From Spirochaetota bacterium (GTDB taxonomy: Bacteria > Spirochaetota > Spirochaetia > SPDA01 > JAJSAL01): DNA of 64,000 bases. Every line of letters starts with the position of its first letter. Position 1 is the stretch's first letter. The stretch covers positions 19,857 through 83,856 of the forward strand of contig JAJSAL010000151.1 of assembly GCA_024274705.1 (NCBI GenBank). The letters are read 5' to 3'. A program made the position numbers and the translations under genes. The notes below the pieces were generated by a model, which worked only from the letters and a program-made list of their open reading frames with translations, was not told where the DNA came from and made no database searches. This document shows, one piece after another, positions 2,962-27,279 of this stretch.

Positions 2962-3978
2962 TTAAAACTCCCCTACCAAATTCCGTATTTCACCGGCGAT
3001 CCGCTCCGGCTGCGGTATGTAGAACTTTTCCATCGGCGGGGAAAACGGAGCCGGCGTGTTAGGCGCTGCGATCCTCCGGATCGGGGCAAGGAGATAATCA
3101 GGGATCCTCTCTGCCACCTGCATGCCGATTTCCGCGCCCAGGCCGCTCTGTTTGGGTGATTCCTCCACCACCGCCAGCCTGCCGGTTTTTTTAACCGAAC
3201 CAATGATAAGATCGATATCCAGGGGCCAGAGGGTCCTGGGATCGATCACTTCCACGTTGATTCCTTCCTGGGAAAGGGTTTCCGCAGCCTGCAGAGAATA
3301 ATGCATCATCAGGAGGTTCGCCACGATGGTAACGTCCGAACCTTCCCTCCGGATAATTCCCTTCCCGATAGGCACGATGTAATCCTCATCGGGTATTTCG
3401 GAAGAGGCATCCAGGGTTCCTGCTTCCTGCCTGATGCCCTTGGAACCGTAGAGACGCTTGTGCTCGAATATCAGCACCGGGTCGTCGTCCCGGACAGCCG
3501 CCCGGAGGAGTCCCATGGCGTCGTAAGCAGTGGCAGGGGCAACGACCTTGATACCGGGACAGCCGATAAAATAAGGTTCCAGGTTCTGGGCGTGCTGCGA
3601 CCCCCTTCCGGTGACGCCCACAGGTGCCCGCATAACCACCGGCATGGTGAGCTTACCGCCGGACATGTAGCGCATCTTTGCTATCTGGTTTACCACCTGG
3701 TCCATGCAGCACAGGAGAAAGTCCCCGTACTGAACGTCTGCGATAGGGCGCATGCCCATGGCACCGGCACCGCAGGCCATACCCATGATAGCGATCTCAG
3801 AGATCGGGGTGTCGATAATCCGGTCCCGGAAATCCTTCTCCAGTCCCAGGGTTACCGTAAAGGCTCCCCCGTATCCCCCGGGAATACCGATATCCTCCCC
3901 TATGCAGAACACGGCCTCGTCCCGCTCCATCTCGCCGTGAATAGCAGTACGCAGTGCTTCGGTTATACTCATCCTCAT
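2962..3978 (-). CDS. 2-oxoacid dehydrogenase E1 beta subunit (AcoB/PdhB-like)
   Basis: 338 residues, the usual length for the beta subunit of a heterotetrameric thiamine-diphosphate E1. The start MSITEALRTAIHGEM, the FCIGEDIGIPGGYGGAFTVT stretch, the DTPISEIAIMGMACGAG motif and the C-terminal transketolase-like domain (VVEESPKQSGLGAEI) are all family signatures. It overlaps E1-alpha by four bases, so subunits are translationally coupled. With E1-alpha and E2 next door it should oxidatively decarboxylate a 2-oxoacid or cleave an acetoin-like compound in the cytoplasm. No E3 (dihydrolipoamide dehydrogenase) is encoded in the window. Substrate unknown. Confidence 0.88.
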   Translation of the reverse strand: MRMSITEALRTAIHGEMERDEAVFCIGEDIGIPGGYGGAFTVTLGLEKDFRDRIIDTPISEIAIMGMACGAGAMGMRPIADVQYGDFLLCCMDQVVNQIAKMRYMSGGKLTMPVVMRAPVGVTGRGSQHAQNLEPYFIGCPGIKVVAPATAYDAMGLLRAAVRDDDPVLIFEHKRLYGSKGIRQEAGTLDASSEIPDEDYIVPIGKGIIRREGSDVTIVANLLMMHYSLQAAETLSQEGINVEVIDPRTLWPLDIDLIIGSVKKTGRLAVVEESPKQSGLGAEIGMQVAERIPDYLLAPIRRIAAPNTPAPFSPPMEKFYIPQPERIAGEIRNLVGEF

Positions 3979-4979
3979 CTCGGCACCTCACAGGTTACGT
4001 ACAGGTCTTCGTAGGTATCTTCAGGTTTCGGCTCTTCGCTGGTCTGGCCGAACAGGATCGCATCATCCACAGCTCTTTCCACCTCGTCTTTTATCGATTG
4101 TATTTCTTTCTCATCAGCCACGCCGTACTCCAGCAGGATCTTTTCACATGCCGGAACAGAATCCTTTCCTTTCCAGTGCTCTTTTTCTTCTTTGGTCATG
4201 TAATTGTTCGGGTCCCGCCGGGAATGGCCGCAGAGACGAAAGGTCTTCAGTTCCAGAAGGGTCGGCCCTTCCCCTTTCCGGGCCAGGTCCACTGCTTCCC
4301 TGGCGTGTTGGTACACTGCAAATACATCCATACCATCGGCAATATCACTCCGCATTCCGTAGGCCGCACCCCGGTCCGCGATGTCCTTGATTTTCATCAC
4401 CCGTTTTACACTGGTGGAAGCACCGTAAAGGTTGTTTTCACACACGAACAGGGCGGGCAGATCGTAGACTGCCGCTGCGTTCAGCCCCTCGTGGAAGGCC
4501 CCTTCGTTGGATGCGCCGTCACCGAAAAAACTCACTGCAATGCGCTTTTCCTTCCGGATTTTGAAGGCCATGGCCATGCCCGCAATGATAGGGATGTTTC
4601 CTCCGACAATGGCTATAGCCGGAAGCATTCCTAAGCTTAAGTCTCCGACATGCATGGATCCGCCTTTCCCCTTACAGCACCCGGTAACTTTACCGTACAG
4701 CTCTGCAGCGACAGCATTAAGAGTGATTCCCCGGGCGATGGCGTGGCCGTGGGGTCTGTGGGTAGACGCAATAACGTCATCATCTTCGAGAGCGGCGGTT
4801 ACGCCCACGGCGCAGGCTTCCTGCCCGATATATTGATGCACCGTACCGGGCATCTTCCCTTCCAGGAAGAGGTACCGGATCTTCTCTTCGAATACCCGGA
4901 TTTCCAGCATCCGGCGGTACATGCCTTGAACCTTATCCTTCCCCAATACATCGATTATCTTTTTATAGTCTGTTTTCAC
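3975..4979 (-). CDS. 2-oxoacid dehydrogenase E1 alpha subunit (AcoA/PdhA-like)
   Basis: 334 residues with the E1-alpha signatures HQYIGQEACAVGV near residue 50, STHRPHGHAIARG, and the thiamine-diphosphate/Mg motif FFGDGASNEGAFHEGLNAAAVYDLP. LCGHSRRDPNNY near residue 240 is the phosphorylation-loop-like region. The start is a GTG overlapping the E2 stop, with AGGAG upstream. It pairs with E1-beta (four-base overlap) in the operon E2-E1alpha-E1beta. Similarity in layout to acetoin dehydrogenase (AcoABC) is clear, but the substrate may instead come from the RuBisCO-like protein encoded upstream. Confidence 0.88.
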   Translation of the reverse strand: MKTDYKKIIDVLGKDKVQGMYRRMLEIRVFEEKIRYLFLEGKMPGTVHQYIGQEACAVGVTAALEDDDVIASTHRPHGHAIARGITLNAVAAELYGKVTGCCKGKGGSMHVGDLSLGMLPAIAIVGGNIPIIAGMAMAFKIRKEKRIAVSFFGDGASNEGAFHEGLNAAAVYDLPALFVCENNLYGASTSVKRVMKIKDIADRGAAYGMRSDIADGMDVFAVYQHAREAVDLARKGEGPTLLELKTFRLCGHSRRDPNNYMTKEEKEHWKGKDSVPACEKILLEYGVADEKEIQSIKDEVERAVDDAILFGQTSEEPKPEDTYEDLYVTCEVPR

Positions 4980-6268
4980 GACATCTCCTCTTCAATAATG
5001 TTCTTCAGCTCCCCTAAGAATTCGGCTCCCTGTACCCCGTTCACTACGCGGTGGTCGAAACTTCCCGTTACAATTACAGCCGGACGGATCCTCATGGTAT
5101 CATCGTCGCCTATCACCATCTTCTTCTCCATCCTTCCGATGGCCAGGATACCCGCCTGTTTCGGGCTGATAATGGCGAAGAACTCATCCACCGGATACAT
5201 CCCCAGGTTGCTCACTGTAAAGGTTCCCCCTTTCATGTCTTCCTTCTGAAGTTTTCCGTTCCGTACCTTTCCCGCCAGCCGGGAGATCCCTTTACCTATC
5301 TCACGAATATCCTTCGTGAGTGGGTCCCGAACAACCGGCACATAGAGTTCATCCCCTGAAGCAACGGCCAGGGCAATCCCGATGTTCCCGTACAGGTGTA
5401 CCGTGTTGTCCTGGAAATATCCATTCAGCCTGGGATGCCTGGACAGGGCAATCGCAATTGCTTTCACCAGGAACGCCGTTACGGATACCCTTTTTCCGTC
5501 GGGATAGGGATGATCTGCCCTGTGCTGCAGCAGATGGTCCATGTAGACCGTTGTTTTAAGATAGTAATGAGGTATCTCGTTCTTACTCTTTGAAAGATTG
5601 AACGCGATGGCCTGCTGGTTCCCGGTAAGCCCTATCCCGGCTTCATGAACGCCGACAGGAGCAGGCGCACCCGATCGATACCCTTCAAGATCGTCCCTGG
5701 TGATCAGCCCCCCGGGTCCTGTACCTTTCACGCTGCTTAAGTCGATACCATGCTTTTGAGCCAGGTTCCGTACGATTGCAGTGACCTTTACTCCGGAAAC
5801 CGGTGACGTTACCCGGCCGAATAAGTCCTTACCGGTAACGGTACCGCCCAGTCCGGTCCCAACCACTTCCTCAAGGTTACATCCCCTTTTAGCCGCAATA
5901 TCCTGGGCTACAGGCGAGAGGGTTACCGGCGCGACTGATGCCGGTTGCCGCTGAAGGTGCAGCGGCTTAAGAGGTACCGGTTGTACTTCCGCCGGAACTG
6001 CCGTTCCCTCTCCTCTAGGCACCTCTTCCCCCTCAGCTCCGATAATTGCAATGGCCGTCCCAGCCTGGATGACCGTGTCCGGTTCCACCAGGATTTTCAG
6101 CACCCTGCCGGAAGCAAAACTTTCCACTTCCATGGAGACCTTGTCTGTTTCCACTTCGCAGACCGGGTCTCCTTTTTGTATTGTGTCCCCTTCTTTTACA
6201 AGCCAGCCGACGAGTTTTACCTCGTCGGTGGTCTGGCTCAACGGGGGCATAACGATTTCAGTTGCCAT
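4976..6268 (-). CDS. dihydrolipoamide acyltransferase E2 with one lipoyl domain
   Basis: 430 residues. Residues 1-80 form a lipoyl domain with CEVETDKVSMEVES, where the Lys carries lipoate. A linker follows, then two peripheral-subunit-binding-like segments (SPVAQDIAAKRGCNLEEV and AIVRNLAQKHGIDLSSV), each ending GTG-GG-x-T or GTGPGG-x-T. The rest is the catalytic acyltransferase domain, with SFDHRVVNGVQGAEF at the active site; the His is present but the usual Asp of HRxxDG is Asn. It starts the E2-E1alpha-E1beta set and follows the RuBisCO-like gene by 15 bases. Two binding-like segments are unusual for a protein with a single lipoyl domain. Confidence 0.86.
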   Translation of the reverse strand: MATEIVMPPLSQTTDEVKLVGWLVKEGDTIQKGDPVCEVETDKVSMEVESFASGRVLKILVEPDTVIQAGTAIAIIGAEGEEVPRGEGTAVPAEVQPVPLKPLHLQRQPASVAPVTLSPVAQDIAAKRGCNLEEVVGTGLGGTVTGKDLFGRVTSPVSGVKVTAIVRNLAQKHGIDLSSVKGTGPGGLITRDDLEGYRSGAPAPVGVHEAGIGLTGNQQAIAFNLSKSKNEIPHYYLKTTVYMDHLLQHRADHPYPDGKRVSVTAFLVKAIAIALSRHPRLNGYFQDNTVHLYGNIGIALAVASGDELYVPVVRDPLTKDIREIGKGISRLAGKVRNGKLQKEDMKGGTFTVSNLGMYPVDEFFAIISPKQAGILAIGRMEKKMVIGDDDTMRIRPAVIVTGSFDHRVVNGVQGAEFLGELKNIIEEEMS

Positions 6269-6283
6269 GGTTAGTTACCGCCC

Positions 6284-7627
6284 TTATAGCTTGAACTCCT
6301 TGGGATGGAACTTCGGGTCCACCCGGAGCCAGGGAGTCGTAGGCCGTTCGAAGTAACCCCACTGTTCAAGGGCGCTTCGAAGTGCCTTGTTCTCCGGTTT
6401 CCGGGCATATTCGTCGATAGGTATATCGTTCATAACCGCGTATATCGCCTGCTGCCAGGCCTGGGCGCCGGCGGTGTAGCCGTCTTTGTGACCCAGCATG
6501 CCGCCGCCTGCGGGAATAATGGTATCCACACCGAATTCCGGGATGATGATGGGAGCCAGCCCCGGGTACATGCCTGCTGCAGGCATGGGCCACATCTTCC
6601 TGAGGTGAAAAAGGTGAGCCTGGCCTAGGTGCTGGCACCTTAAGCCCTCTTCCAGGCTCACCATTGGAATACTGGACCAGAAGGAGGGAGTCAGCGTATT
6701 GTCTGCTCCGCAGAGGCGGATGAGCTTGGTGAATACCGGCCAGGAGATGCTCTTCATTGCGGCTATCATGTGCGAATTGTGCACCATGACCGGAACGTTG
6801 ATTGCAGGATCCTCCGTTATTGCCCGTATTGCCGACAACCCCACGGAATAGGTGATGAGGAGTCCGTTCGCCCCTAGTTCCACCGCCCGCCTGGCTTTTT
6901 CGTGCATCTTTTCCACTTCGTCGGTGATGGAACAGTAATAGACCATCTTCTTCTTACCGGTCTTCGCGGAAGCCCGTTCTATGGCGTCCATCACATATTT
7001 CAGCCTGTCTTCATACTTGTTGTTGTAGCTGTCGGAGAGCATTTCGTCGTCTTTACACAGGTCGGCGCCTCCCATGGCTGTTTCGTACACCTGCGCTCCT
7101 GTCTGCTCCGGGGTCATCCCCATTTTCGGCTTGATGATGTGGAGAGAAAGGGGGCGGTCATAGACATCCAGCAGTTCCCGGATACCGGAAACACCGAATT
7201 TAGGACCCTTGAAGTTCTTCACCATATTTTCCGGAAGTGTGACGTCCAGAAGCCGTAAATCCTTCGAATATGCGAAGCAGTTGCCCGCTATGGATAGAAG
7301 CGCCATGGGAATGTTGTTGTGCCAGGCAGCGATAGGGAACGCCAGTTGCACGACACAGGCCTTTGTATAGGCCTCGTCCACGGGCAGTTCATAGTAACCA
7401 ACCACCTTTCCGGAAAGATTGAGCCTCACCTCTTCGGTGTCTTCCTTTACCTTCTGCCAGGACCCGGTGGATCCTTCGATTGCCATTGCCTCCACCAGCT
7501 TGAAGTGATCGATAAAATCCACCCCGGGAAGGGTGTCCTTCATGTAGTAGGTAGCAACGATGTTGTCTTTCAAGTCGATGCCGTCCAGGGCGTTCTCAAA
7601 GATAATGGGATCGTGAATGCGTGTCAT
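6284..7627 (-). CDS. RuBisCO-like protein (form IV type)
   Basis: 447 residues, the length of a RuBisCO large subunit. By eye the N-domain has EGSTGSW (E60 kept, T65 to Ser) and AGNCF (N123). The barrel has IIKPKMG (K175 and K177), GGADLCKDDEM (carbamylated K201, D203, E204) and a phosphate-binding GGGMLGH. In contrast RLCGADNTLTPSFWSS replaces H327 and the loop-6 Lys334, VHNSH replaces R295, and AAGMY replaces SGGIH around S379. It should therefore bind Mg and enolise a sugar-phosphate-like substrate but not fix CO2. GGAG is present at the start. It lies between an RpiR gene and E2-E1 genes. The substrate cannot be named; the methionine-salvage and apionate-type families are candidates to exclude. 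Confidence 0.85.
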   Translation of the reverse strand: MTRIHDPIIFENALDGIDLKDNIVATYYMKDTLPGVDFIDHFKLVEAMAIEGSTGSWQKVKEDTEEVRLNLSGKVVGYYELPVDEAYTKACVVQLAFPIAAWHNNIPMALLSIAGNCFAYSKDLRLLDVTLPENMVKNFKGPKFGVSGIRELLDVYDRPLSLHIIKPKMGMTPEQTGAQVYETAMGGADLCKDDEMLSDSYNNKYEDRLKYVMDAIERASAKTGKKKMVYYCSITDEVEKMHEKARRAVELGANGLLITYSVGLSAIRAITEDPAINVPVMVHNSHMIAAMKSISWPVFTKLIRLCGADNTLTPSFWSSIPMVSLEEGLRCQHLGQAHLFHLRKMWPMPAAGMYPGLAPIIIPEFGVDTIIPAGGGMLGHKDGYTAGAQAWQQAIYAVMNDIPIDEYARKPENKALRSALEQWGYFERPTTPWLRVDPKFHPKEFKL

Positions 7628-15369: not shown

Positions 15370-16175
15370 ACCCTTACCCCTTTGATGATCTGTCTTAAGT
15401 TTCCGCCTGATATCATTTTTTTCTCATTATCCGATATATCCGCATCCAGAATCATTCCCATGGACGCAAAGGGATCGTTAACAGGAAGAAATGATCCGAA
15501 TATCAGCCTTTCCGCTCCAAAGGTTTTCACAGCGTGGGTGATAAAATCCTGTCCGATGAAATTGGATGTTTCCAGCAGCACATTGTTACAGGACTCCATC
15601 AGGCTGTACAGGTTCCTGTTGTGGTAAAGGATCTTTTGCCACTGGGTTTCCACTATTATATTCAGCTTCGGGAATTTTTTTGCCAGTACATAGACATGGT
15701 TCCAGTCAACTTCAATATGCCAGAAAAAAAGAGGAACAGCATGCCGTATGCACCATTCACACAAAGTGCCGATAACCCAGGGTGACAAAAGATACTTATG
15801 GGTTTTCGGGAAGAGGCGGACACCCCGGAGCCCTGGAGGGGGAGCATTAAAACCTGGCAGAGGGTCCTGTTCATGTGGTGAGAGTGGCAGTCCTGTCCAG
15901 ATTGTATAGATTGCTTCAGGAAGATATTCCTGTAACTCCAGCAGTGCATGGTTACCGTCCTGCGCGGAAATTTTTGGCGAATCCCAGTGGGAGATAAGAC
16001 CGCCCTCGAGATGATATTTGCTGCAGACCTCTTCCAGATCATTTGGGTGAAGCTCTGATGCGATTGGAAAAAAATCCGGCTCCCCGAGCCATATATTAGC
16101 ATCAAAAAACTGCAGCTCTTTAACTTTATCACGTTTTTTACGGGACATATCTTCCATGACCTTCTCAATTTTCAT
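15366..16175 (-). CDS. amidohydrolase-fold protein lacking metal ligands
   Basis: 269 residues with the same barrel outline as its neighbour at 14584: FFDANIWLG at the start, GLRGVRLFPKTHKYLL, PLFFWHIEVDW and ERLIFGSFLPVNDP near the end. The catalytic motifs are altered. HxH becomes DANIW and GTDYP becomes GSFLP, so the metal site is probably lost. It is four-base overlapped with genes on both sides, indicating tight co-translation. A non-catalytic partner of the active amidohydrolase is one reading; a divergent enzyme is the other. No frameshift is visible. Confidence 0.68.
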   Translation of the reverse strand: MKIEKVMEDMSRKKRDKVKELQFFDANIWLGEPDFFPIASELHPNDLEEVCSKYHLEGGLISHWDSPKISAQDGNHALLELQEYLPEAIYTIWTGLPLSPHEQDPLPGFNAPPPGLRGVRLFPKTHKYLLSPWVIGTLCEWCIRHAVPLFFWHIEVDWNHVYVLAKKFPKLNIIVETQWQKILYHNRNLYSLMESCNNVLLETSNFIGQDFITHAVKTFGAERLIFGSFLPVNDPFASMGMILDADISDNEKKMISGGNLRQIIKGVRV

Positions 16176-17617
16176 AATGTTCTCCTGTTTTGATTCCCTG
16201 GGTTATATATTTCCCCTGCAAAGCTGTTTTTAATAAGCTCATTCAGTTCGCTTACGGAACCAACAGCACCAGTTGCAATGAGCTGTATGCCGATATTCCC
16301 AACCGCTGTTGCTTCCGCGGGACCGGTAACCACAGCGATGTTGGCCGCGTCTGCTATCATCTGACAGAGAAAAGCGTTCTTCACTCCCCCTCCGAGAATG
16401 ATAAGCCGGTTTATTTTCCTGCCGGTAATTTCTTCCAGGTCCGAAACAGCAGCACCGCAGGAGGAAGCGAGATTTTCAAAGATACTCCGTACTATTTTCC
16501 CCCTTTCTACAGGTAATTCCTGTTCTGTTTTCCGAAAATATTCTTTAATCGTTGCGCTCATAGTTACCGAAGAGAAAAAAATCGGATCATTTACCTCTAA
16601 ATCCAGAGAGAACCGAGGCTGATCTATTGCCTGCTGTATGAGAGTATCATAAGAGCAATCACTTGATTCAAGCTTCCAGGTATTGATAAGACCTTCAAGA
16701 ATGTAAAAACCCATCATATTTTTTGCGAAAAGGATCGAGTGTACCGCGATTTCATTCACAAAGCCTCTGCGGAATCCGAGTGGGCCTGTCTCAGGCTCTT
16801 TCAGCAAGGCGCCGAAGACAAACCAGGTTCCCGTGGATAGAAAAGCTGTATCCTCCCGTGTATCAAACACAGAAACCGATGTGCTGATGGTATCATGACC
16901 TGCAACTGCGATAACCGGCGCCGATTCAATATCCGTGTAAGCTTTAACTTCCTGCAGAAGATCTCCTGTATACGTTCCGGGTGAGACAATAGACGGGAAA
17001 ATGCCCGCCGGCAGCCTGAACAGATCTATCAATTTTTTGTTCCATCCCCTGGTGCGTATATCCAGAAGTTGAGATCCCCAGAGGATGGTTTCCTCTCCCT
17101 GCGCAATACCGGTAAGAAAATACCTGATGAGATCCGCCAGGGGGAGGTATTTTGCAGCAATATCCAAAATCGGATCGGTTGATTTATTCTTCAAATGCAC
17201 CAGCCTTGATAATCCGGTAATAGTACTGAATCCGCATCCTGCTTTTTTAAAGAGAGATTCTTCATCAATAGTTTGTTTAATGAGCTTTTCAACCGCAGCG
17301 GGGCAAGGTTCTCTGTAGGATATCGGATTTCGCAGCAGAGTTCCGGATTTATCCAGAAGCCCAAAATCACAGTTAAAGGTATCTATTCCTATACCTGCAA
17401 GTTCTCTTACACCCGTAGCAGCACATTTTTTTAGGGATTCCAGGATATTGTCCCAAATACATAACAAATCCCAGTATAAAGTGCCGCCAAGCATGACCGG
17501 TTTAATATCAAATCTGTGTATTTCCTTAAGCCTTAAGAGACCGTCAGCTGCGTATCCAAGAATTGCCCTTCCGCTTGCAGCCCCGATATCGAATGCGAGA
17601 TAGGGTTTATCTGCCAT
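16172..17617 (-). CDS. FGGY carbohydrate kinase, rhamnulokinase-like
   Basis: 481 residues. The N-terminal FDIGAASGRAILG, WDLLCIWDNILESLK and GIDTFNCDFGLLDK strongly resemble rhamnulokinase (RhaB). AVAGHDTISTSVSV and LSTGTWFVFG fit the substrate and ATP regions, and LIILGGGVKNAFLCQMIAD is the adenosine motif. It should phosphorylate a ketose such as rhamnulose at C1 in the cytoplasm. It overlaps the URO-D gene upstream (11 bases) and the amidohydrolase-like gene downstream (4 bases). A class II aldolase that could cleave the product lies at 26452. Another deoxyketose could be the substrate. Confidence 0.82.
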   Translation of the reverse strand: MADKPYLAFDIGAASGRAILGYAADGLLRLKEIHRFDIKPVMLGGTLYWDLLCIWDNILESLKKCAATGVRELAGIGIDTFNCDFGLLDKSGTLLRNPISYREPCPAAVEKLIKQTIDEESLFKKAGCGFSTITGLSRLVHLKNKSTDPILDIAAKYLPLADLIRYFLTGIAQGEETILWGSQLLDIRTRGWNKKLIDLFRLPAGIFPSIVSPGTYTGDLLQEVKAYTDIESAPVIAVAGHDTISTSVSVFDTREDTAFLSTGTWFVFGALLKEPETGPLGFRRGFVNEIAVHSILFAKNMMGFYILEGLINTWKLESSDCSYDTLIQQAIDQPRFSLDLEVNDPIFFSSVTMSATIKEYFRKTEQELPVERGKIVRSIFENLASSCGAAVSDLEEITGRKINRLIILGGGVKNAFLCQMIADAANIAVVTGPAEATAVGNIGIQLIATGAVGSVSELNELIKNSFAGEIYNPGNQNRRTL

Positions 17618-18799: not shown

Positions 18800-19615
18800 T
18801 CAGCACAGGGTCATCTGTATCCCGGCTTCGGCGAAATGTTCAACCGTTACCCTATCCAGTTCTCTGCCGGTAATTATTTCGTTGAAGGCGGTTATATCCG
18901 AAACTTTCAGAAACGACGTTTTGTTGAATTTGGAAGACATAATCAATCCCACGGTTTTATCAGCACACCTTTCCAGAATAATTTTGGTAACCGCGCTTTC
19001 ATTCACATCATCGGCAGTGATGCCCGCCTCCATGTCTATGGCTGTTACAGAGAGAAACGCTATGTCCACTTTTATACTCTGAAAGGTACTCATGGCTGTC
19101 GGCCCGAGGAGGAAGGACTTATACACATTGAGCAGACCGCCGGAGAGAAGGATTTCAAAATCCTTGTTGTACTGTTCGGTAAGTTCCGCCATACGCATGG
19201 CAATCATGGGAGAAGCTGTCACAATTTTCAAATGATCTTTATCAATAAGATTCTCTACAAGGGCCAGGCATGTACTTCCGGACTCGATAATAATAAAATC
19301 GCCGTCGGAGATCAGTTCTGAAGCTTTGGATCCAATCCGGTTCTGCTCATCCGTTAACATTTTTGAAGCTTGAGAAGCACGGGGAGAAACTACAATGTGA
19401 GAAAGGGAGACTGCCCCGCCCCTTACCCTTTTGAGCAGACCCTCATCTTCCAGCTTTTCAAGGTCTCTGCTTATAGTCATTCTGGAAACCGGGAATGCTT
19501 CTGCCAAGGCATCCACAGTGATGGATTTACGGGTGTTTACAATGTCCAGTATTTTCTTCCTTCTATCAAAGGACAACATCTGACCATCTTTTTCATAATT
19601 TGTATCTTGTGCCAT
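18800..19615 (-). CDS. DeoR-family transcriptional regulator
   Basis: 271 residues. The N-terminal winged helix has RRKKILDIVNTRKSITVDALAEAFPVSRMTISRDLEKLEDEGLLKRVRGGA, with a degenerate start of the DeoR signature. The C-terminal sugar-phosphate sensor has IIIESGSTCLALVENL in place of DSGTT, LLSGGLLN and SVTAIDMEAGIT. It is embedded between the ABC importer genes and the kinase block, so it probably represses the operon until a sugar phosphate accumulates. The tandem repeat at 22587-22620 is a candidate binding region. Start at 19615 is tentative; ATG at 19579 is an alternative. Confidence 0.85.
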   Translation of the reverse strand: MAQDTNYEKDGQMLSFDRRKKILDIVNTRKSITVDALAEAFPVSRMTISRDLEKLEDEGLLKRVRGGAVSLSHIVVSPRASQASKMLTDEQNRIGSKASELISDGDFIIIESGSTCLALVENLIDKDHLKIVTASPMIAMRMAELTEQYNKDFEILLSGGLLNVYKSFLLGPTAMSTFQSIKVDIAFLSVTAIDMEAGITADDVNESAVTKIILERCADKTVGLIMSSKFNKTSFLKVSDITAFNEIITGRELDRVTVEHFAEAGIQMTLC

Positions 19616-19651: not shown

Positions 19652-20422
19652 TTACCCGGCTTCATCATCGTGTTCGTTATTGCCGGCTCCGACAAACATA
19701 AATTTCACAATTTCATCCTGATTCGTTTGGGAGGTTTCCTTCACAGCGACGATCTCTCCATGTTTCAGAACGAAAATACGGTCAGCCACGGTAAATATAT
19801 CGCTTAATCTGTGACTGATCAATATAACGGAAATTCCCTGATTCTTCAGCCTGATAACCAGGTCCAACACTTTCTGAATTTCTTTTAAGGCAAGACTCGC
19901 GGTCGGTTCATCCAAAATGAGAATTCTTGGATTAAAACTAACCGCTTTTCCAATTGCAACAGCCTGCTGCTGCCCTCCGGACAGTTTATCCACCTTCCTC
20001 CGTGGATTATCTATTTCTATCCTGAGATCGTGCAGTATTTCTACCGTTCTCGCATCCATTCTCTTTCTGTATAAAAATTTCAAAACCCTGTCTCGCATGA
20101 GTTCTTTACCCAGAAACAAGTTTTCTGTCACAGAGAGGTTTTTACACAATTCAAGATCCTGATAGACCATTTCGATGCCAAATCGTTTTGATACACGGGG
20201 GCTGTCAATTACAACCTCTTTCCCTTCGATTAAAATTGTGCCACGATCTGCCTGATGAAAACCGGTCAGGATTTTCATCAACGTTGATTTCCCCGCCGCA
20301 TTATCCCCCACAAGACCTAAGATTTCTCCATGCTTAAGGTCGATGCTGAGATCTTTCAGGGCCTGCACTCCTCCGAATGATTTATCGACATGTTTCATTT
20401 CCAGTAAAAAACCAGTTCCCAT
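19652..20422 (-). CDS. sugar ABC importer ATPase, single-domain
   Basis: 256 residues with one nucleotide-binding domain: Walker A GDNAAGKST, signature LSGGQQQAVAIG, Walker B ILILDEPTASL and the switch His in VILISHR. Ribose/galactose-type importers usually have a fused double ATPase of about 500 residues, like the one at 51530. This protein therefore resembles FrcA-type half-ATPases and should act as a homodimer. It is preceded by its permease with a 13-base gap. It powers uptake of the sugar bound by the 21463 protein. Confidence 0.88.
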   Translation of the reverse strand: MGTGFLLEMKHVDKSFGGVQALKDLSIDLKHGEILGLVGDNAAGKSTLMKILTGFHQADRGTILIEGKEVVIDSPRVSKRFGIEMVYQDLELCKNLSVTENLFLGKELMRDRVLKFLYRKRMDARTVEILHDLRIEIDNPRRKVDKLSGGQQQAVAIGKAVSFNPRILILDEPTASLALKEIQKVLDLVIRLKNQGISVILISHRLSDIFTVADRIFVLKHGEIVAVKETSQTNQDEIVKFMFVGAGNNEHDDEAG

Positions 20423-20435
20423 GGACCGCTCCCTG

Positions 20436-21407
20436 TTACCCTTTTATTTTAAATCCGCCGCCTTGGAGAGTATCGACGTATACCGCGAGCATTAACACTG
20501 CACCTCGTACTATCATCTGGTAGAAGGTCTGGACACTCAGGAGCACCATTCCGTTATTCAGCACTGCAAGGATCAGCACCCCTAACAAAGTACCGAGAAT
20601 ACTTCCCTTACCGCCTGCCAGGCTTATTCCTCCTAATACAACCGCGGTAATTACATTCATAAGAGCCGACGTTCCAGCCGACGGAACAGCTACCCCGACC
20701 TGGGATACATAGGTGATGGCAGCCACTCCTGCAGCCGCGGCACTCACAATCATCCCCCAGAACCTCACCATTCTTACATTTATTCCCGAAATGTAGCTTG
20801 CTTCTGCATTGCCTCCGACTGCATAGATCCTCTTTCCATACACGGTAAATTTTAGTATTACATACACTAAAGCGAACACAAAAACCATAATATAAATACT
20901 TATTGGTATTCCCAGCAATCTTCCAGACCCAATTACCGAAAAGAAATGACCCGATACCCCTAATACTTTAGTTTCGGTGATCATGTAGGCCAGACCCCTG
21001 AATATCAGCATTGTTCCCAGGGTAGTAATAATCGGATTAATTTTCAGAAAAGCAACGGAAAACCCGTTTACTGCACCACACGCCAATACGATGCTTAATG
21101 CAATTATGATTGACAGGAATACTGCCACTCCGCTTCTTACAAGTATAGCCAGCACCCCTGTTGAAAAAGCGAGGACAGCATACTGGGAAATATCTATCTG
21201 CCCCATCAACATGGTGACAAACAGCCCCGCTGCCATGATTCCTAATATGGCTGTAGCCGAAAGAAAGTTCAGTATATTCTTGATTGTTAAAAAATAGGGA
21301 GAAGTAATGGAAAAAAACAGACACAAACCAAATAAAGCTATCAGCAGGCTCAGTATTACTCCGGATTCCTCAATTATCAGTCTGATTCGCAATCTTGTGT
21401 TGGTCAT
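20436..21407 (-). CDS. sugar ABC importer permease (RbsC/FrcC family)
   Basis: 323 residues with about nine to ten hydrophobic segments. The family signature is AVVLGGISLAGGKGSILGTLLGVLILAVLNNGM near the C-terminus, and an earlier segment ITTLGTMLIFRGLAYMITE is also typical of ribose-type permeases. One permease gene is present, so the membrane part is probably a homodimer. It sits between the binding-protein and ATPase genes in the minus-strand operon. Confidence 0.88.
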   Translation of the reverse strand: MTNTRLRIRLIIEESGVILSLLIALFGLCLFFSITSPYFLTIKNILNFLSATAILGIMAAGLFVTMLMGQIDISQYAVLAFSTGVLAILVRSGVAVFLSIIIALSIVLACGAVNGFSVAFLKINPIITTLGTMLIFRGLAYMITETKVLGVSGHFFSVIGSGRLLGIPISIYIMVFVFALVYVILKFTVYGKRIYAVGGNAEASYISGINVRMVRFWGMIVSAAAAGVAAITYVSQVGVAVPSAGTSALMNVITAVVLGGISLAGGKGSILGTLLGVLILAVLNNGMVLLSVQTFYQMIVRGAVLMLAVYVDTLQGGGFKIKG

Positions 21408-21462: not shown

Positions 21463-22482
21463 TCATTCGCCGGGATAATACTCGTCAATATTATCCTTGG
21501 TTACAACGACATGTTCCATCAGAATCTCTTTAGGAGCATCTCTACCTTCAAGAATATCAACGAGAACCGGGATGAGGTAATCCCCATATTTTTCAGGTTG
21601 GTAGGCAACGGATCCAATCCAGAGGTCCCCTTTTCCAGCCCGTATTTTTTCCCGAAACGGGCTATCCGCTCCATGTGAGACAATGAGAACATCATTTTCT
21701 CTGCCTTGGGTCTCAACGGCTGAAAGCGCACCCACCCCCCCCTCATCATTATTGGAAGCAACAACGATATGGGTCATATCCGGATGTGCAGTAAGAAAAT
21801 CGGTAACGAATTGCCTGGTTACTGTTGTCGGGTCAGGCATAGTATCATAGGAAAAAACATTGTCTTCCGAAAATTCCGGATGGGTTTCACGGTAACCGTC
21901 TACCACTCCCTGCATTCGCAAAAAGATGGTTTCTCCGACAACCGGTGGGAAACCGAGAACGATTGCATCCACAACGCCTCCCCACCGCTTATCAACTTCC
22001 CCTGCTAAAAACCTGCCAAGTATCAGTCCGGCACCATAATTATCTGCACCGAAATAATATGCTCCGTCGACTTTATAATCTCCTGTGATCATCACAATGT
22101 CCGGATTTTCATCCATGAATTTCTTCGTTACATCGGGGGTCCAGTTAAACTCGAATATAGCATCAACTCCCTGAATCACGAATGTATCAAGATTGCTCTT
22201 AATCCTTTCCGGTTCCATCTGTGCTTCCGCATACAAAACTTTAATCCCATATTTTGCTGCGGCATCTTCGATCGACTGATGTACTTTGTAACAGAATTCA
22301 AATGAATCCATGTAGTTATTAATACCCAACACAAATGGTTCTTTTTCTGCCTCTGCTGGCGCGGCAACTGCCTCTGCTGGTTCTGCCTCCTGCTTTCCTC
22401 CAGCGAAGGCGAAACCAGTCACTATTAAAAAAACAATGAAGCTAAGCAGTAGGTGAAATACAATCTTCCCGTTTCGTTTCAT
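21463..22482 (-). CDS. periplasmic sugar-binding protein of the ABC importer
   Basis: 339 residues from the ATG at 22482, which has AAAGGAGAAGAAGTT upstream; the longer ORF-track start is rejected. The leader ends FAFAGGKQEAEPAEA, a spirochaete-style signal with an acidic linker. The mature protein has the type I periplasmic binding fold seen in ribose/galactose binders (PFVLGINNYMD, ADNYGAGLILGRFLAGE, HIVVASNNDEGGVGALSAVE). It captures a sugar for the permease and ATPase that follow. A strong promoter and tandem repeats precede it. Specificity is not readable, but the operon points to a deoxysugar or sugar acid. Confidence 0.87.
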   Translation of the reverse strand: MKRNGKIVFHLLLSFIVFLIVTGFAFAGGKQEAEPAEAVAAPAEAEKEPFVLGINNYMDSFEFCYKVHQSIEDAAAKYGIKVLYAEAQMEPERIKSNLDTFVIQGVDAIFEFNWTPDVTKKFMDENPDIVMITGDYKVDGAYYFGADNYGAGLILGRFLAGEVDKRWGGVVDAIVLGFPPVVGETIFLRMQGVVDGYRETHPEFSEDNVFSYDTMPDPTTVTRQFVTDFLTAHPDMTHIVVASNNDEGGVGALSAVETQGRENDVLIVSHGADSPFREKIRAGKGDLWIGSVAYQPEKYGDYLIPVLVDILEGRDAPKEILMEHVVVTKDNIDEYYPGE

Positions 22483-22554
22483 AACTTCTTCTCCTTTTTT
22501 ATTCCCATATCCCCCACACACGAGATACACTCCGAATATATTGAAAGTAATTTC

Positions 22555-22582
22555 ATTATAAACCACATCCTGTCGATGTCAA
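22555..22582 (-). promoter_or_regulatory. strong sigma-70-type promoter of the importer operon
   Basis: On the minus strand TTGACA (22582-22577), a 16-base spacer and TATAAT (22560-22555) are perfect consensus hexamers, 73 bases before the binding-protein start. Confidence 0.7.
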
Positions 22583-22647: not shown

Positions 22648-23841
22648 TTATCCTATCGGGCCGAATTCTTCCGATTTTTTCGCAATGAACTTCAACCTCT
22701 CCAGGTCCGCATCCGGAGGCGTGGTATCGCTTATACTCAATACTATTTTGCACCCGCTTCCTATGCTTTCGAATGTATCGCCAATCAGTTTTTCAAATGC
22801 GTTGTCATTCATGGAATTTTTCAGTACACAGATAGACGGAAGTCCACCGAAAATCGCAACATCTTCACCCAAAGATTCCCTGATTTTTTTCAGAGAGAGA
22901 TTAGTCATAGGATGGGGGCATATGGAGTCTGCTATATGCATACCGCTTTTTCTGTACATTTTCAGCAGGCCGGTGTTTTCCCCGTCAGGATGAGCCGCTA
23001 ACATTTTTCCCCTTTTCTCCAGATATTCTGCTCTACCTTTCATATCATCCAGGATAAACTCTTGAAAAAAATAGGGAGGGGTTATGATAGTATTAAAATT
23101 GGTACCGGACATGATTATTTCCGCGGGGCTGTCAACGGTAACCTCAAAAGCAGCGTCATAAAACACTGCTACTTTCCGGGCAAACTCCAGCATATCCTGC
23201 TTATAGTCGGTGAGAGTATAGTAAAAATTCTCCAGCCCCATTAACACCCTGAGGATGAAATGCATCGACGAGGCGCCAAAGGAATGAAATGCTGCAACCA
23301 CTCCCCTGTCACCCACGTATTCGACCATTTCGTTATACCCGTCGTAAAAAGGCACAACCTCCGCATGCTCGAATATATATCCAGCCGCCTTCAAATCATC
23401 GATGCCCTGAACAGGATACTTCCGTACAAAGGGAGCAGTAGCACCGCTTGTTTTAACTCCGTCATCGAGTACCGACTCAGTTGTGATGTCTCCAAACGGT
23501 GTTGAGTAACGGGTGCCCAGTGATCCCCTGCCGCGCTGCGTTTCAACGGCTATATTGTGCAGCTGCACCCTGTATGGACAGGTTTTAAAAGTGTAAAAAC
23601 CCAAAGGGTAATGCACGTCATGTCCTCCAGGCTCATCCAGGTCATTGAAATCAGGTATCATGTAGTGGTATCCCAGTTCCAGATCGTCCAGAATATCACG
23701 GAGACTTGCGTCTTTGTACATAGAAGGGAGTTTGTTTAAAAACTTGTTTGAATTATACCAGATATCCATCCGCGGCACGAAAGGAAGGTGCGGTAAAGGT
23801 TCACCTTTCGCGGCTTTAATCATAGATTTTTTTATACTCAT
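22648..23841 (-). CDS. URO-D family protein (HPDG subgroup)
   Basis: 397 residues with the URO-D barrel outline but divergent motifs: LPHLPFVPRMDIWYN near the start, IMSGTNFNTIITPPYFFQEFIL mid-protein and KMLAAHPDGENTGLLKMY at the zinc-motif position. His is kept but Cys is Asp. IFGGLPSICVL replaces the GG-x-DKR strand of the 525/17607 subfamily. It follows the isomerase gene by 13 bases and ends just before the importer promoter. Possibly methyltransferase-derived; no corrinoid protein gene is near. Function unknown. Confidence 0.74.
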   Translation of the reverse strand: MSIKKSMIKAAKGEPLPHLPFVPRMDIWYNSNKFLNKLPSMYKDASLRDILDDLELGYHYMIPDFNDLDEPGGHDVHYPLGFYTFKTCPYRVQLHNIAVETQRGRGSLGTRYSTPFGDITTESVLDDGVKTSGATAPFVRKYPVQGIDDLKAAGYIFEHAEVVPFYDGYNEMVEYVGDRGVVAAFHSFGASSMHFILRVLMGLENFYYTLTDYKQDMLEFARKVAVFYDAAFEVTVDSPAEIIMSGTNFNTIITPPYFFQEFILDDMKGRAEYLEKRGKMLAAHPDGENTGLLKMYRKSGMHIADSICPHPMTNLSLKKIRESLGEDVAIFGGLPSICVLKNSMNDNAFEKLIGDTFESIGSGCKIVLSISDTTPPDADLERLKFIAKKSEEFGPIG

Positions 23842-23854
23842 TCCGGCCTCCGTT

Positions 23855-24820
23855 TCAGGAAGTGATCAATTCCCTTAAATACTGGTGCACATGCATGGTC
23901 TTCCCATCTTTCCTTAAGCTCTCAAATTCACCGTTTCCTACAAGCCTGTCCGCCAGGTCGATAAACCACCTGATCCTCTTCACGCTCTCTTCCAGGGCCT
24001 TCCTTCCATCCACCCGGGAGGGCCAGATATCGATGTCGTACCATTCGTTGTATCCGATTTTCCGGAGGGCATAGAAGAATTCCAGGGTTTCAAAGAAATG
24101 GATGCTGCCTAAAAGCAGATCGTCATCCCAGGACCTGTAATTATCATTTACATGGATGTCGAACATCCTGCCGAACATGGCAGCGAATTCCACCGCTTCC
24201 GCGGGATTTTCACCCGCTGCCAGGGAGTGCCCCAAATCTACGGTGACACCCACATTCGGTTTATTGATTTTTTCACAGATCGCAACGGTTGTGCCTACCG
24301 TATTGAAATGCTGATGTGTCCTCGGTTCTTTCGCCTTGTACTCGATGGCGAGCTTTACATCACTTCTGTACTCCGCTGCTTCCGTTAGGGAATCCAGCAG
24401 CCAGTTCCACTTGATCGTGTAATCATCCTCAAAGGGATAATCGAACCCGTCGTGGGCCAGCCATATCAGGACATCATACGCGTTCAGTTCCGCAGCCAGG
24501 TCCATCGATTTTTTGATTTCTCCTAAGTATTTTCGTCTTATCTTCGGATCCCGGCTGGAGATGGTACCTGTCTTTTGTTCCGCCTTGAGGTATGTATCAG
24601 GACAGACACAACCCACCATCATATGATGTTCCTCTATTTTCTTTTTGATCAGGTCCAGTTCTTCACCGCCGGCGGCAATCATCCCGATACCGTTGATGCC
24701 GTCAATGTTCGCGAACTCATCGATCATCCCGGGGAAGGTCAGCCCCTTTCGATAGCCCTTTGTTACGAACCTGTCTTCACAGGGGGAAAACGCCGCTCCC
24801 GCAGCTTGGATTTTCAACAT
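23855..24820 (-). CDS. TIM-barrel sugar isomerase/epimerase
   Basis: 321 residues of the xylose-isomerase-like family. Metal and catalytic residues appear in LAIEYKAKEPRTH, VTVDLGH, FDIHVND and WYDIDIWPSR. GGAGGTATGATAC precedes the ATG. A frameshifted paralogue lies at 40272-41260 with matching IEYKPKEPRTH and MHFNDNWRHWDDD motifs, so a family expansion is evident. It sits between the aminotransferase and URO-D genes. It probably interconverts a ketose and aldose or epimerises a keto-sugar; a rhamnose-isomerase-like role is possible but not proven. Confidence 0.82.
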   Translation of the reverse strand: MLKIQAAGAAFSPCEDRFVTKGYRKGLTFPGMIDEFANIDGINGIGMIAAGGEELDLIKKKIEEHHMMVGCVCPDTYLKAEQKTGTISSRDPKIRRKYLGEIKKSMDLAAELNAYDVLIWLAHDGFDYPFEDDYTIKWNWLLDSLTEAAEYRSDVKLAIEYKAKEPRTHQHFNTVGTTVAICEKINKPNVGVTVDLGHSLAAGENPAEAVEFAAMFGRMFDIHVNDNYRSWDDDLLLGSIHFFETLEFFYALRKIGYNEWYDIDIWPSRVDGRKALEESVKRIRWFIDLADRLVGNGEFESLRKDGKTMHVHQYLRELITS

Positions 24821-24840: not shown

Positions 24841-26169
24841 TCACTTCACCGACACCAGGGCTTCCCGGAGTACTTCCAGAACTCTGTCTGCTTCTTCTTC
24901 GGTAATGACAAAAGGCGGTTTTATTTTGAGTACATTTCTTTTCATGCCCCCCACCCCGAAGATCACGCCATGGTCCATTGCGAAAGAACGTACCCCACTC
25001 AGCCGTTCCCCGTCGGCTTCTTTCGTAACAGGATCTTTGACGAACTCCACCCCGATGTGGAGCCCTGCCTGGCGAACATCACCAATCCCGGGGAACTCCT
25101 TCTGCAGCATCTTAAGCTGCTGCCTTAAGTAATTCCCCATGCGGTTACAGTTTTCCAGGATCCCGTTTTCCAGCATTTCAATCAACTTAAGAGCCGCAAC
25201 CTGGGAGACCGTGTTATTGGCAAAGGTGTGAAGTTCCTCGGAATCGGGAGAGAACCCTTCAAGGTCATCGCTTATCAACGTGGCGGCTATGGGATAGCCC
25301 GCGCCTAAGCCCTTACCCAGGCATATGATATCCGGCTCTACACCATAATAGCCACTGGCAAACCAGGTTCCGATCCGGCAGTATGTCTGGATTTCGTCCC
25401 AGATCAATGGTATGCCGTATTCATCACAGGTATCCCGCACTCCTTGCAGGTATTCCTTCGGGAAAATGATCTGTCCACCGCTAGCCTGCAGGGGTTCCAT
25501 CAGGATTCCGGCAACCGGTCCGTTTATTCCTTTTTCTATGGTTAACTTTAATATCCTGAGACACATCATGCCGCAGGAGCCCTTTTCCAGTTCAAGGGGA
25601 CACCGGTAACAATATGGGTTGGGTACCCGGATAAACTGCCTGGACAGCCTGGTAAAGCGGGAACCGCCGATAAATTTTCCCATCGAGCGGGTGGATATCC
25701 AGCTGGAACCCATGGTCCCCAAACTCGTGCCGTGGTATGCATCATAGAGGGAGATAAACTCCCGGGCTTCAGGACGGTTTTTAAGGGCGATCTTCAGCCC
25801 CCCCTCCACCGCTGCGGAGCCTCCTACGGTGAAGGATACGCGGTTGATTTTTTTCGGAGCCAGCCCGGTCAGCTTTTTTGCCAGGGCGAAACGGGAGGGG
25901 GTGTCGAACCCCTGGTGGACGTGTGTGATGTTCCTGGTGTGCTCGCATACGGTCCGGGTCAGTTCTTCATTGGCAAAGCCGAGATACATTGCCCAGCTCT
26001 GGGATGTACAGTCGATGTATTTTTTTCCATCTATATCTTCCAGCCACACACCTTTACCCCGGATAATCATCGGGGCCGGCCTTGTACCGCCGCCGATCAT
26101 CAAATGCCTGGAATACGCCCTGATATCCTCTTTTTTCATTCCATAGAGACTTTCAAGCATGGGGTCCAT
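24841..26169 (-). CDS. class III (PLP) aminotransferase
   Basis: 442 residues from the ATG at 26169, chosen because AAGGAG lies six bases upstream; the track start at 26187 has no such site. The fold-type I class III signatures are present: YIDCTSQSWAMYLGFANEEL, FTVGGSAAVEGGLKIA, LIWDEIQTYCRIG and IICLGKGLGAGYPIAA, where the Lys binds PLP. This group transfers amino groups between an omega-amino compound or amino sugar and a 2-oxoacid. It begins the transcription unit with isomerase and URO-D genes. A role in amino-sugar or beta-amino-acid turnover is inferred. Confidence 0.88.
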   Translation of the reverse strand: MDPMLESLYGMKKEDIRAYSRHLMIGGGTRPAPMIIRGKGVWLEDIDGKKYIDCTSQSWAMYLGFANEELTRTVCEHTRNITHVHQGFDTPSRFALAKKLTGLAPKKINRVSFTVGGSAAVEGGLKIALKNRPEAREFISLYDAYHGTSLGTMGSSWISTRSMGKFIGGSRFTRLSRQFIRVPNPYCYRCPLELEKGSCGMMCLRILKLTIEKGINGPVAGILMEPLQASGGQIIFPKEYLQGVRDTCDEYGIPLIWDEIQTYCRIGTWFASGYYGVEPDIICLGKGLGAGYPIAATLISDDLEGFSPDSEELHTFANNTVSQVAALKLIEMLENGILENCNRMGNYLRQQLKMLQKEFPGIGDVRQAGLHIGVEFVKDPVTKEADGERLSGVRSFAMDHGVIFGVGGMKRNVLKIKPPFVITEEEADRVLEVLREALVSVK

Positions 26170-26207
26170 TATCCACTCCTTAAACATATTATAACAAATT
26201 TAAACTT

Positions 26208-26451: not shown

Positions 26452-27279
26452 TCAGGAGCTTACATACTTGAGGATGGTATCCACGATAACATTGATCTCC
26501 TGTTTACCCATGTGCAGCGACGGGGCTGCTTTCTCCACTGCATTGTGGACAGGAACGGATTCCAGGGCGGCAGAAACCGCCGGCTGTGACGTTTTCGGAG
26601 GATAATCACATGTAGTACATGCTGTCCGGCTCACCTTCGGCTTTCCCATCTTCTCCCGGATCGCGTAGAGTACCTGTTTCTGCTCCTCGGAGAGCACATT
26701 TTCGTTTCCCAGTGACCGGGCCACCAGGGTGATCTTGGCGACCGCTTCCAGGGTTTCCATCTTGTAATAGGCGTCCATCACGCTGTTTCCCACGGTAATA
26801 GCTCCATGATTTGCCAGGAGCATGGCGTCACAACAGGTAATCTCTTTTGCTACCACTCGCGGCACCTCTTCCGTAGTAGGTGTGGCATAGTCGGAAAGCT
26901 TTATCTGTCCAAGATTGTACACCACCTCAGGCAGAGAAATTTTATCCAGACCTTCTCCGGCAACGGCGAACCCTGTTGCCGTGGGTGGATGAGCATGAAC
27001 CACTGCCTGCACATCACTCCTGCAATAATACACCGCCAGGTGCATTTTCATCTCCGAGGTAGGCTTCATAAATCCGGCAAGCAGGTTTCCCTCGAAATCG
27101 ACCTTAAGGATCTGGTCCGGGGTCATGAATCCCTTGCTCACCCCGGTAGGGGTAATGAGCAGTTCACTCTCACTCAGCCGGACGCTTATATTGCCGTCAT
27201 TTGATGCGACAAAATCTTTTTCGAAGAGCCTTCTGCCAGCCTCGATAATGTCCTTGCGTAATTCTGCTTCTCTGGTCAT
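26452..27279 (-). CDS. class II aldolase with C-terminal encapsulation-like tail
   Basis: 275 residues from ATG 27279; the TTG at 27348 in the track is unlikely. Residues 1-215 are a class II (fuculose/rhamnulose-phosphate) aldolase: SNDGNISVRL, SEMKMHLAVY with the catalytic Glu, VVHAHPPTATGFA with the zinc HAH and LLANHGAITVG with the third His. A Pro/Ala-rich linker then leads to a 20-residue amphipathic helix, EINVIVDTILKYVSS. Such a linker and helix are typical of aldolases delivered into bacterial microcompartments. It should split a deoxyketose 1-phosphate into DHAP and lactaldehyde. No shell genes are in the window. Confidence 0.83.
   Translation of the reverse strand: MTREAELRKDIIEAGRRLFEKDFVASNDGNISVRLSESELLITPTGVSKGFMTPDQILKVDFEGNLLAGFMKPTSEMKMHLAVYYCRSDVQAVVHAHPPTATGFAVAGEGLDKISLPEVVYNLGQIKLSDYATPTTEEVPRVVAKEITCCDAMLLANHGAITVGNSVMDAYYKMETLEAVAKITLVARSLGNENVLSEEQKQVLYAIREKMGKPKVSRTACTTCDYPPKTSQPAVSAALESVPVHNAVEKAAPSLHMGKQEINVIVDTILKYVSS

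Follow-up and report, generated by a model that had tools for sequence, protein, structure and literature searches.

A class II aldolase with a putative encapsulation peptide, encoded in a sugar operon away from the shell genes of a spirochaete

That class II aldolases can be targeted to bacterial microcompartments by their C-termini is already known. In the ACI-type microcompartments of Acidobacteria, a PF00596 aldolase carries an encapsulation peptide (EP) at its C-terminus and is encoded inside the shell locus (Sutter et al. 2021, PMC8217296). The aldolase described here has the same domain and a putative EP in the same place, but it is encoded remotely, instead; its acidobacterial relatives are about 50–58% identical to it and have tail helices of the EIRLTYREL type. 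In fucose/rhamnose microcompartments of the GRM5 and PVM types, a class II aldolase generates DHAP and lactaldehyde for encapsulated enzymes (PMC3557285, PMC6325248, PMC8217296), the very products likely for our enzyme. The GRM5/PVM aldolase is encoded in the shell locus, however—in Clostridium phytofermentans it is the kinase and isomerase that are encoded elsewhere—whereas ours shares an operon with kinase and isomerase-like genes and is separated from the shell. The SPU enzyme set and SPU-like loci have also been described, and the SPU-like loci of Latescibacteria use a class II aldolase (PMC4207490, PMC8217296); a shell locus in our genome is of this type, but the class II aldolase lies outside it. 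In the HO type, a DeoC with an EP-like extension is encoded remotely in a shell-bearing genome (PMC8217296). There too an aldolase with an EP-like extension lies away from the shell, but it is a PF01791 enzyme, extended at its N-terminus and found in Haliangium-type genomes, whereas ours is a class II enzyme with a C-terminal tail. What is new is a class II aldolase with a putative tag in a sugar operon remote from all shell genes, a remoteness that is repeated in a complete chromosome.

The window, that is the whole stretch of 64,000 nucleotides that was analysed, spans positions 19857–83856 of contig C123 in a 4.59 Mb genome bin of 198 contigs (96.6% complete, 7.7% contamination). On its minus strand an ORF at 26452–27279, with its ATG at 27279, encodes a 275-aa class II aldolase resembling fuculose- and rhamnulose-1-phosphate aldolases (PF00596, Aldolase_II, E 3e-48). 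The catalytic domain occupies residues 10–185 (26725–27252; Pfam, AlphaFold2) and has the metal and catalytic residues of the superfamily; E76, H95, H97 and H158 are invariant across 42 aligned homologues. Alignment with solved FucA homologues reaches about residue 204, and the ~70 further residues are extra; the tail that follows the alignable part is PPKTSQPAVSAALESVPVHNAVEKAAPSLHM-GKQEINVIVDTILKYVSS. It divides into a linker (residues about 213–257; 26509–26643), with a CxxC (CTTC) near its start, and a C-terminal helix, GKQEINVIVDTILKYVSS (26455–26508), the putative EP, which is homologous in position to the tails of relatives. AlphaFold2, supplied with 42 homologues from fetched loci, models the core confidently, drops to pLDDT below 50 over residues 238–241 and 243–256, and ends in a helix at 259–274 with a block pLDDT of about 80–85. 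The predicted structure matches that of EP cargo, an amphipathic helix of 15–20 residues on a flexible linker at the terminus, and bears out the linker and terminal tail that the initial annotation had read from the sequence. Four further class II aldolases of this genome are encoded by open frames of just 143–224 aa, too short for a comparable tail. Among 75 tailed aldolases, 25 have a CxxC, often CxxCxxC, between catalytic domain and tail (for example at 26569–26643 in the window, and in L069, L070 and L073).

Downstream of the aldolase, and on the same strand, lie a class III aminotransferase (24841–26187; PF00202, E 6e-76) after a gap of 264 bases; a TIM-barrel sugar isomerase/epimerase-like protein of the xylose/rhamnose isomerase type (23855–24820; PF01261; TIGR02635 E 8e-22, below its cut-off); a URO-D-like protein (22648–23841; PF01208, E 1e-6); the substrate-binding protein (21463–22566), permease of the ribose/arabinose type (20436–21407; NCBIfam) and ATPase (19652–20422; read from its translation) of a sugar ABC transporter; a DeoR-family regulator (18800–19615; NCBIfam); and a rhamnulokinase-like FGGY kinase (16172–17617; TIGR02627 E 1e-94, below the equivalog cut-off). 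Judged by its genes, the operon is rhamnose-like. In Paradesulfitobacterium (L080), a tailed aldolase comes immediately after a kinase and an isomerase and is itself followed by shell genes, with a binding protein 37% identical to the window's further along; this order, together with the genes of the window operon, makes DHAP and lactaldehyde the likely products. Since the aldolase reaches no curated equivalog cut-off (fucA 87.6 against 400 bits, rhaD 59 against 170), we infer its substrate, which is probably rhamnulose-1-phosphate or a similar deoxyketose phosphate. A role in methylthioribose or 5-deoxyribose metabolism, prompted by L072, the shell-linked locus closest to the window aldolase in the tree, which has those genes, was rejected: the genome of the window has no methylthioribose kinase, and this favours a rhamnose-type substrate. 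Elsewhere on the same contig, just upstream of the window, a second pair of rhamnulokinase-like kinase and TIM-barrel isomerase has its own ABC transporter (L013 16051–18515). Within the window, a RuBisCO-like protein (6284–7627), with MtnW/OiaX-like scores below the cut-offs, adjoins pyruvate-dehydrogenase-like E1/E2 genes (2962–6268).

Having seen no shell gene in the window, the initial annotation predicted a shell locus elsewhere, and named a genome without shell genes as the result that would count against it. A profile search of the genome disposes of that: there are five PF00936 and five PF03319 hits, all of them on contig C71, and none anywhere on C123. The genome that encodes the aldolase thus encodes shell proteins too, in two loci, both on C71 and, by contig coordinates, at least 46 kb from the aldolase however the contigs join. 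Locus B (about 126–133 kb) encodes BMC-H, BMC-T, four BMC-P, an RnfC/PduS-like protein, an aldehyde dehydrogenase (AldDH), RpiB (PF02502) and DeoC (PF01791), which with the shell genes make up the SPU set. Locus A (about 37–43 kb) encodes BMC-H, BMC-P, AldDH, a xylulokinase-like kinase, an FBA-type aldolase and a PGDH-like enzyme. The AldDHs of the shell loci belong to the PRK15398 family, above its cut-off; PduL phosphotransacylase was not found. The initial annotation, which had likened the tail to those of aldolases in fucose/rhamnose microcompartments, is supported in part: the operon is rhamnose-like and the family mostly shell-linked and tailed, but the large shell locus has the SPU set, and no dedicated fucose/rhamnose shell locus was seen in the genome. 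The Axen/Sutter satellite locus is a remote one that contains shell genes; C123 has none, and the window locus is a cargo-only remote locus.

Several details of these shell loci deserve mention in their own right. The FBA-type (ketose-bisphosphate) aldolase and PGDH-like dehydrogenase of locus A (L012 9394–13170) both have EP-like C-terminal helices, and an FBA-type aldolase in the shell locus of G040 (L054 8920–9882) has a similar C-terminus. A truncated DeoC remnant sits beside locus A (L012 5061–5393). A 212-aa protein of spirochaete SPU loci (L011 14259–14897, L012 7987–8625) matches PF00936 marginally (E 3e-4 and 1e-3), and is predicted to be a divergent BMC-domain shell protein.

We scanned 84,980 genomes with six aldolase queries, kept the best-scoring 80 loci (best segments 43–60% identical), and called shell genes, using profiles from the source genome and relatives, in fetched stretches of up to 10 kb on each side. 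Among these 80, 69 have shell genes beside the aldolase, and in every one of the 69 the enzyme is extended at its C-terminus by a stretch that ends helix-like. The other 11 comprise one truncated, five tailed and five tail-less members, so that a tail is present in 5 of the 10 full-length relatives that are unlinked; the tail-less members of the wider clade (L079, L134, L135, L138, L139) are none of them beside shell genes. In the tree, the window aldolase falls inside a 64-row clade that contains all 48 shell-linked rows (SH-aLRT 96), and within it in a 10-row, mostly spirochaete subclade (SH-aLRT 100), several members of which are unlinked but tailed. In the sister Spirochaetales loci L086 and L198, the homologous tailed aldolase directly follows DeoC in an SPU shell operon. 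Outside the microcompartment clade, class II aldolases of two shell-bearing genomes (L061 8194–8895 in G043, L065 6360–7067 in G004) have EP-like tails as well, which suggests an independent gain.

Across the class, a survey with the window aldolase as query (E 1e-45) gave matches in 31 of 394 genomes. Where the C-termini could be read, shell genes are present in 19 of 22 genomes with a tailed aldolase and in none of seven with a tail-less one, an association for which the hypergeometric probability, computed by hand, is about 1e-4, the seven tail-less genomes representing only three families and so not being independent. Among the first 60 relatives, every genome with a tailed best hit has shell genes. 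In three genomes of the class (G076, G113 and G135, the last 99% complete), the aldolase is tailed and no shell was detected. Remoteness recurs, too. In the complete spirochaete chromosome CP070696 (G246), a tailed aldolase with a DeoC for neighbour maps to 4,265 kb, whereas the shell genes map to 2,178–2,180 kb; with about 2 Mb between them, the remoteness is not merely an artefact of assembly. In G044, aldolase and shell are on separate contigs, each well away from the contig ends.

On balance we think it probable that the window aldolase, the product of a rhamnose-like operon, is EP-tagged cargo for the SPU-type shell on C71. The enzyme would be a ketose-1-phosphate aldolase from a family that is as a rule encapsulated in microcompartments, encoded with an ABC importer, an isomerase-like protein and a rhamnulokinase-like kinase, apart from the shell genes. 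It would split the product of the kinase, probably rhamnulose-1-phosphate or similar, into DHAP and an aldehyde; linker and helix would dock the aldolase inside the C71 shell, and docking would free the aldehyde next to an EP-tagged acylating AldDH. This reading is supported by the shell loci and their AldDHs, by the tails of all the shell-linked relatives and half of the unlinked ones, by the class-wide association, by the position in the tree, by the SPU operons of L086 and L198, the layout of CP070696 and the gene order of L080, by the tetranucleotide likeness of C71 and C123, and by the predicted linker and helix. It is weakened by poor EP scores, by the contamination of the bin, by the three tailed genomes without a shell, and by the lack of PduL.

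The scores require some explanation. The initial annotation had credited the tail with one hydrophobic face, which holds up to a point: its hydrophobic moment is 0.54 (shuffle p 0.04), but that ranks 7th among the 70 C-termini of the window contig and is near the lower quartile of the relatives' tails, so that amphipathicity alone is weak evidence; the case for the tail is made by homology and predicted architecture, instead. A first EP profile, built from aldolase tails, scores it at −3.7, which is chance (shuffle p 0.23), and a reduced-alphabet profile places it at the 90th percentile of C-termini (p 0.15). Of four profiles built post hoc, three give p 0.02–0.03 and the fourth 0.14; with these, AldDH N-terminal EPs included, it reaches p about 0.02 and the top 1–3% of C-termini, and all profile members outscore it. 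The EPs of the genome's own DeoC, AldDH, FBA-type aldolase and PGDH-like enzyme score clearly better, and searching the genome for EPs at E values up to 10 does not recover the window tail. It is, in short, the poorest targeting peptide of the scored set (shuffle p 0.02–0.23 by profile), and may be divergent or decaying. Were it decaying, the ancestor would have been microcompartment cargo, and the enzyme, having moved to a sugar operon, would now be cytosolic, its targeting signal eroding. The bottom rank of the tail fits this, as do the tail-less members of the wider clade, all of them away from shell genes, and the three tailed spirochaete genomes with no detectable shell. Linker and predicted helix persist, however, the hydrophobic positions fit the EP pattern, and the moment is inside the range of the relatives' tails; we regard erosion as unlikely.

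Those same three genomes, and the CxxC after the domain in a third of tailed relatives, could also mean that the tail does a different job: it might hold oligomers together, bind some other protein or, at the CxxC, form a metal site. Tails follow shell linkage among the best 80 relatives and shell presence across the genomes of the class, however, and we consider such a role quite improbable. That C71 comes from a different organism, as the contamination estimate and the 198 contigs might allow, is very improbable indeed, for the tetranucleotide distance from C71 to C123 is within C123's own spread (a signal that binners use too) and an equivalent layout occurs in a complete chromosome.

A side result concerns a subset of the shell loci. 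Eight loci, each in a different genome, one in Bacillota (L072, 1388–10801) and seven in spirochaetes (L186, L188, L189, L190, L191, L192, L194), combine a tailed class II aldolase with an MtnA-family isomerase and/or an MtnK-family kinase and shell genes, and seven of the eight have an AldDH as well. In L187 (562–2313; G145:C168), the class II aldolase is fused to an MtnA-family isomerase, which supports 5-deoxyribulose- or methylthioribulose-1-phosphate as the putative substrate of its subclade. Aldolase, isomerase and kinase are the gene trio of 5-deoxyribose disposal, the DHAP shunt, which yields DHAP and acetaldehyde in a description whose text never mentions microcompartments (PMC6079011). 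In Acetobacterium woodii, a methylthioribose kinase beside pduU/pduV has been judged to have nothing to do with microcompartments (PMC7593272). In the open literature searched, '5-deoxyribose' was not found together with 'microcompartment'; the supplementary locus catalogue of PMC8217296, outside that search, may list such loci without function. A 5-deoxyribose/methylthioribose microcompartment that would salvage radical-SAM by-products, in two phyla, is thus a candidate and a testable proposal.

The spirochaete SPU-type shell might be a shared aldehyde-handling hub, its core encoded once while sugar operons under regulation of their own, wherever they lie in the genome, each add their own EP-tagged aldolase. 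We offer this tentatively, and would not count on it: the EP search for more remote cargo returned only the known C71 enzymes, and otherwise non-terminal or ordinary-regulator matches, so the idea gained no additional member. If true, the core—shell, AldDH, DeoC and RpiB—would be re-purposed according to which sugar operon is induced. Microcompartment catalogues reach no further than a dozen ORFs from a shell gene (PMC8217296), so remote cargo escapes them, and organelles are given functions on the strength of partial inventories. Should remote tagged enzymes prove common, the locus of a shell would not suffice to define the shell's substrate range, and several sugars may share one shell.
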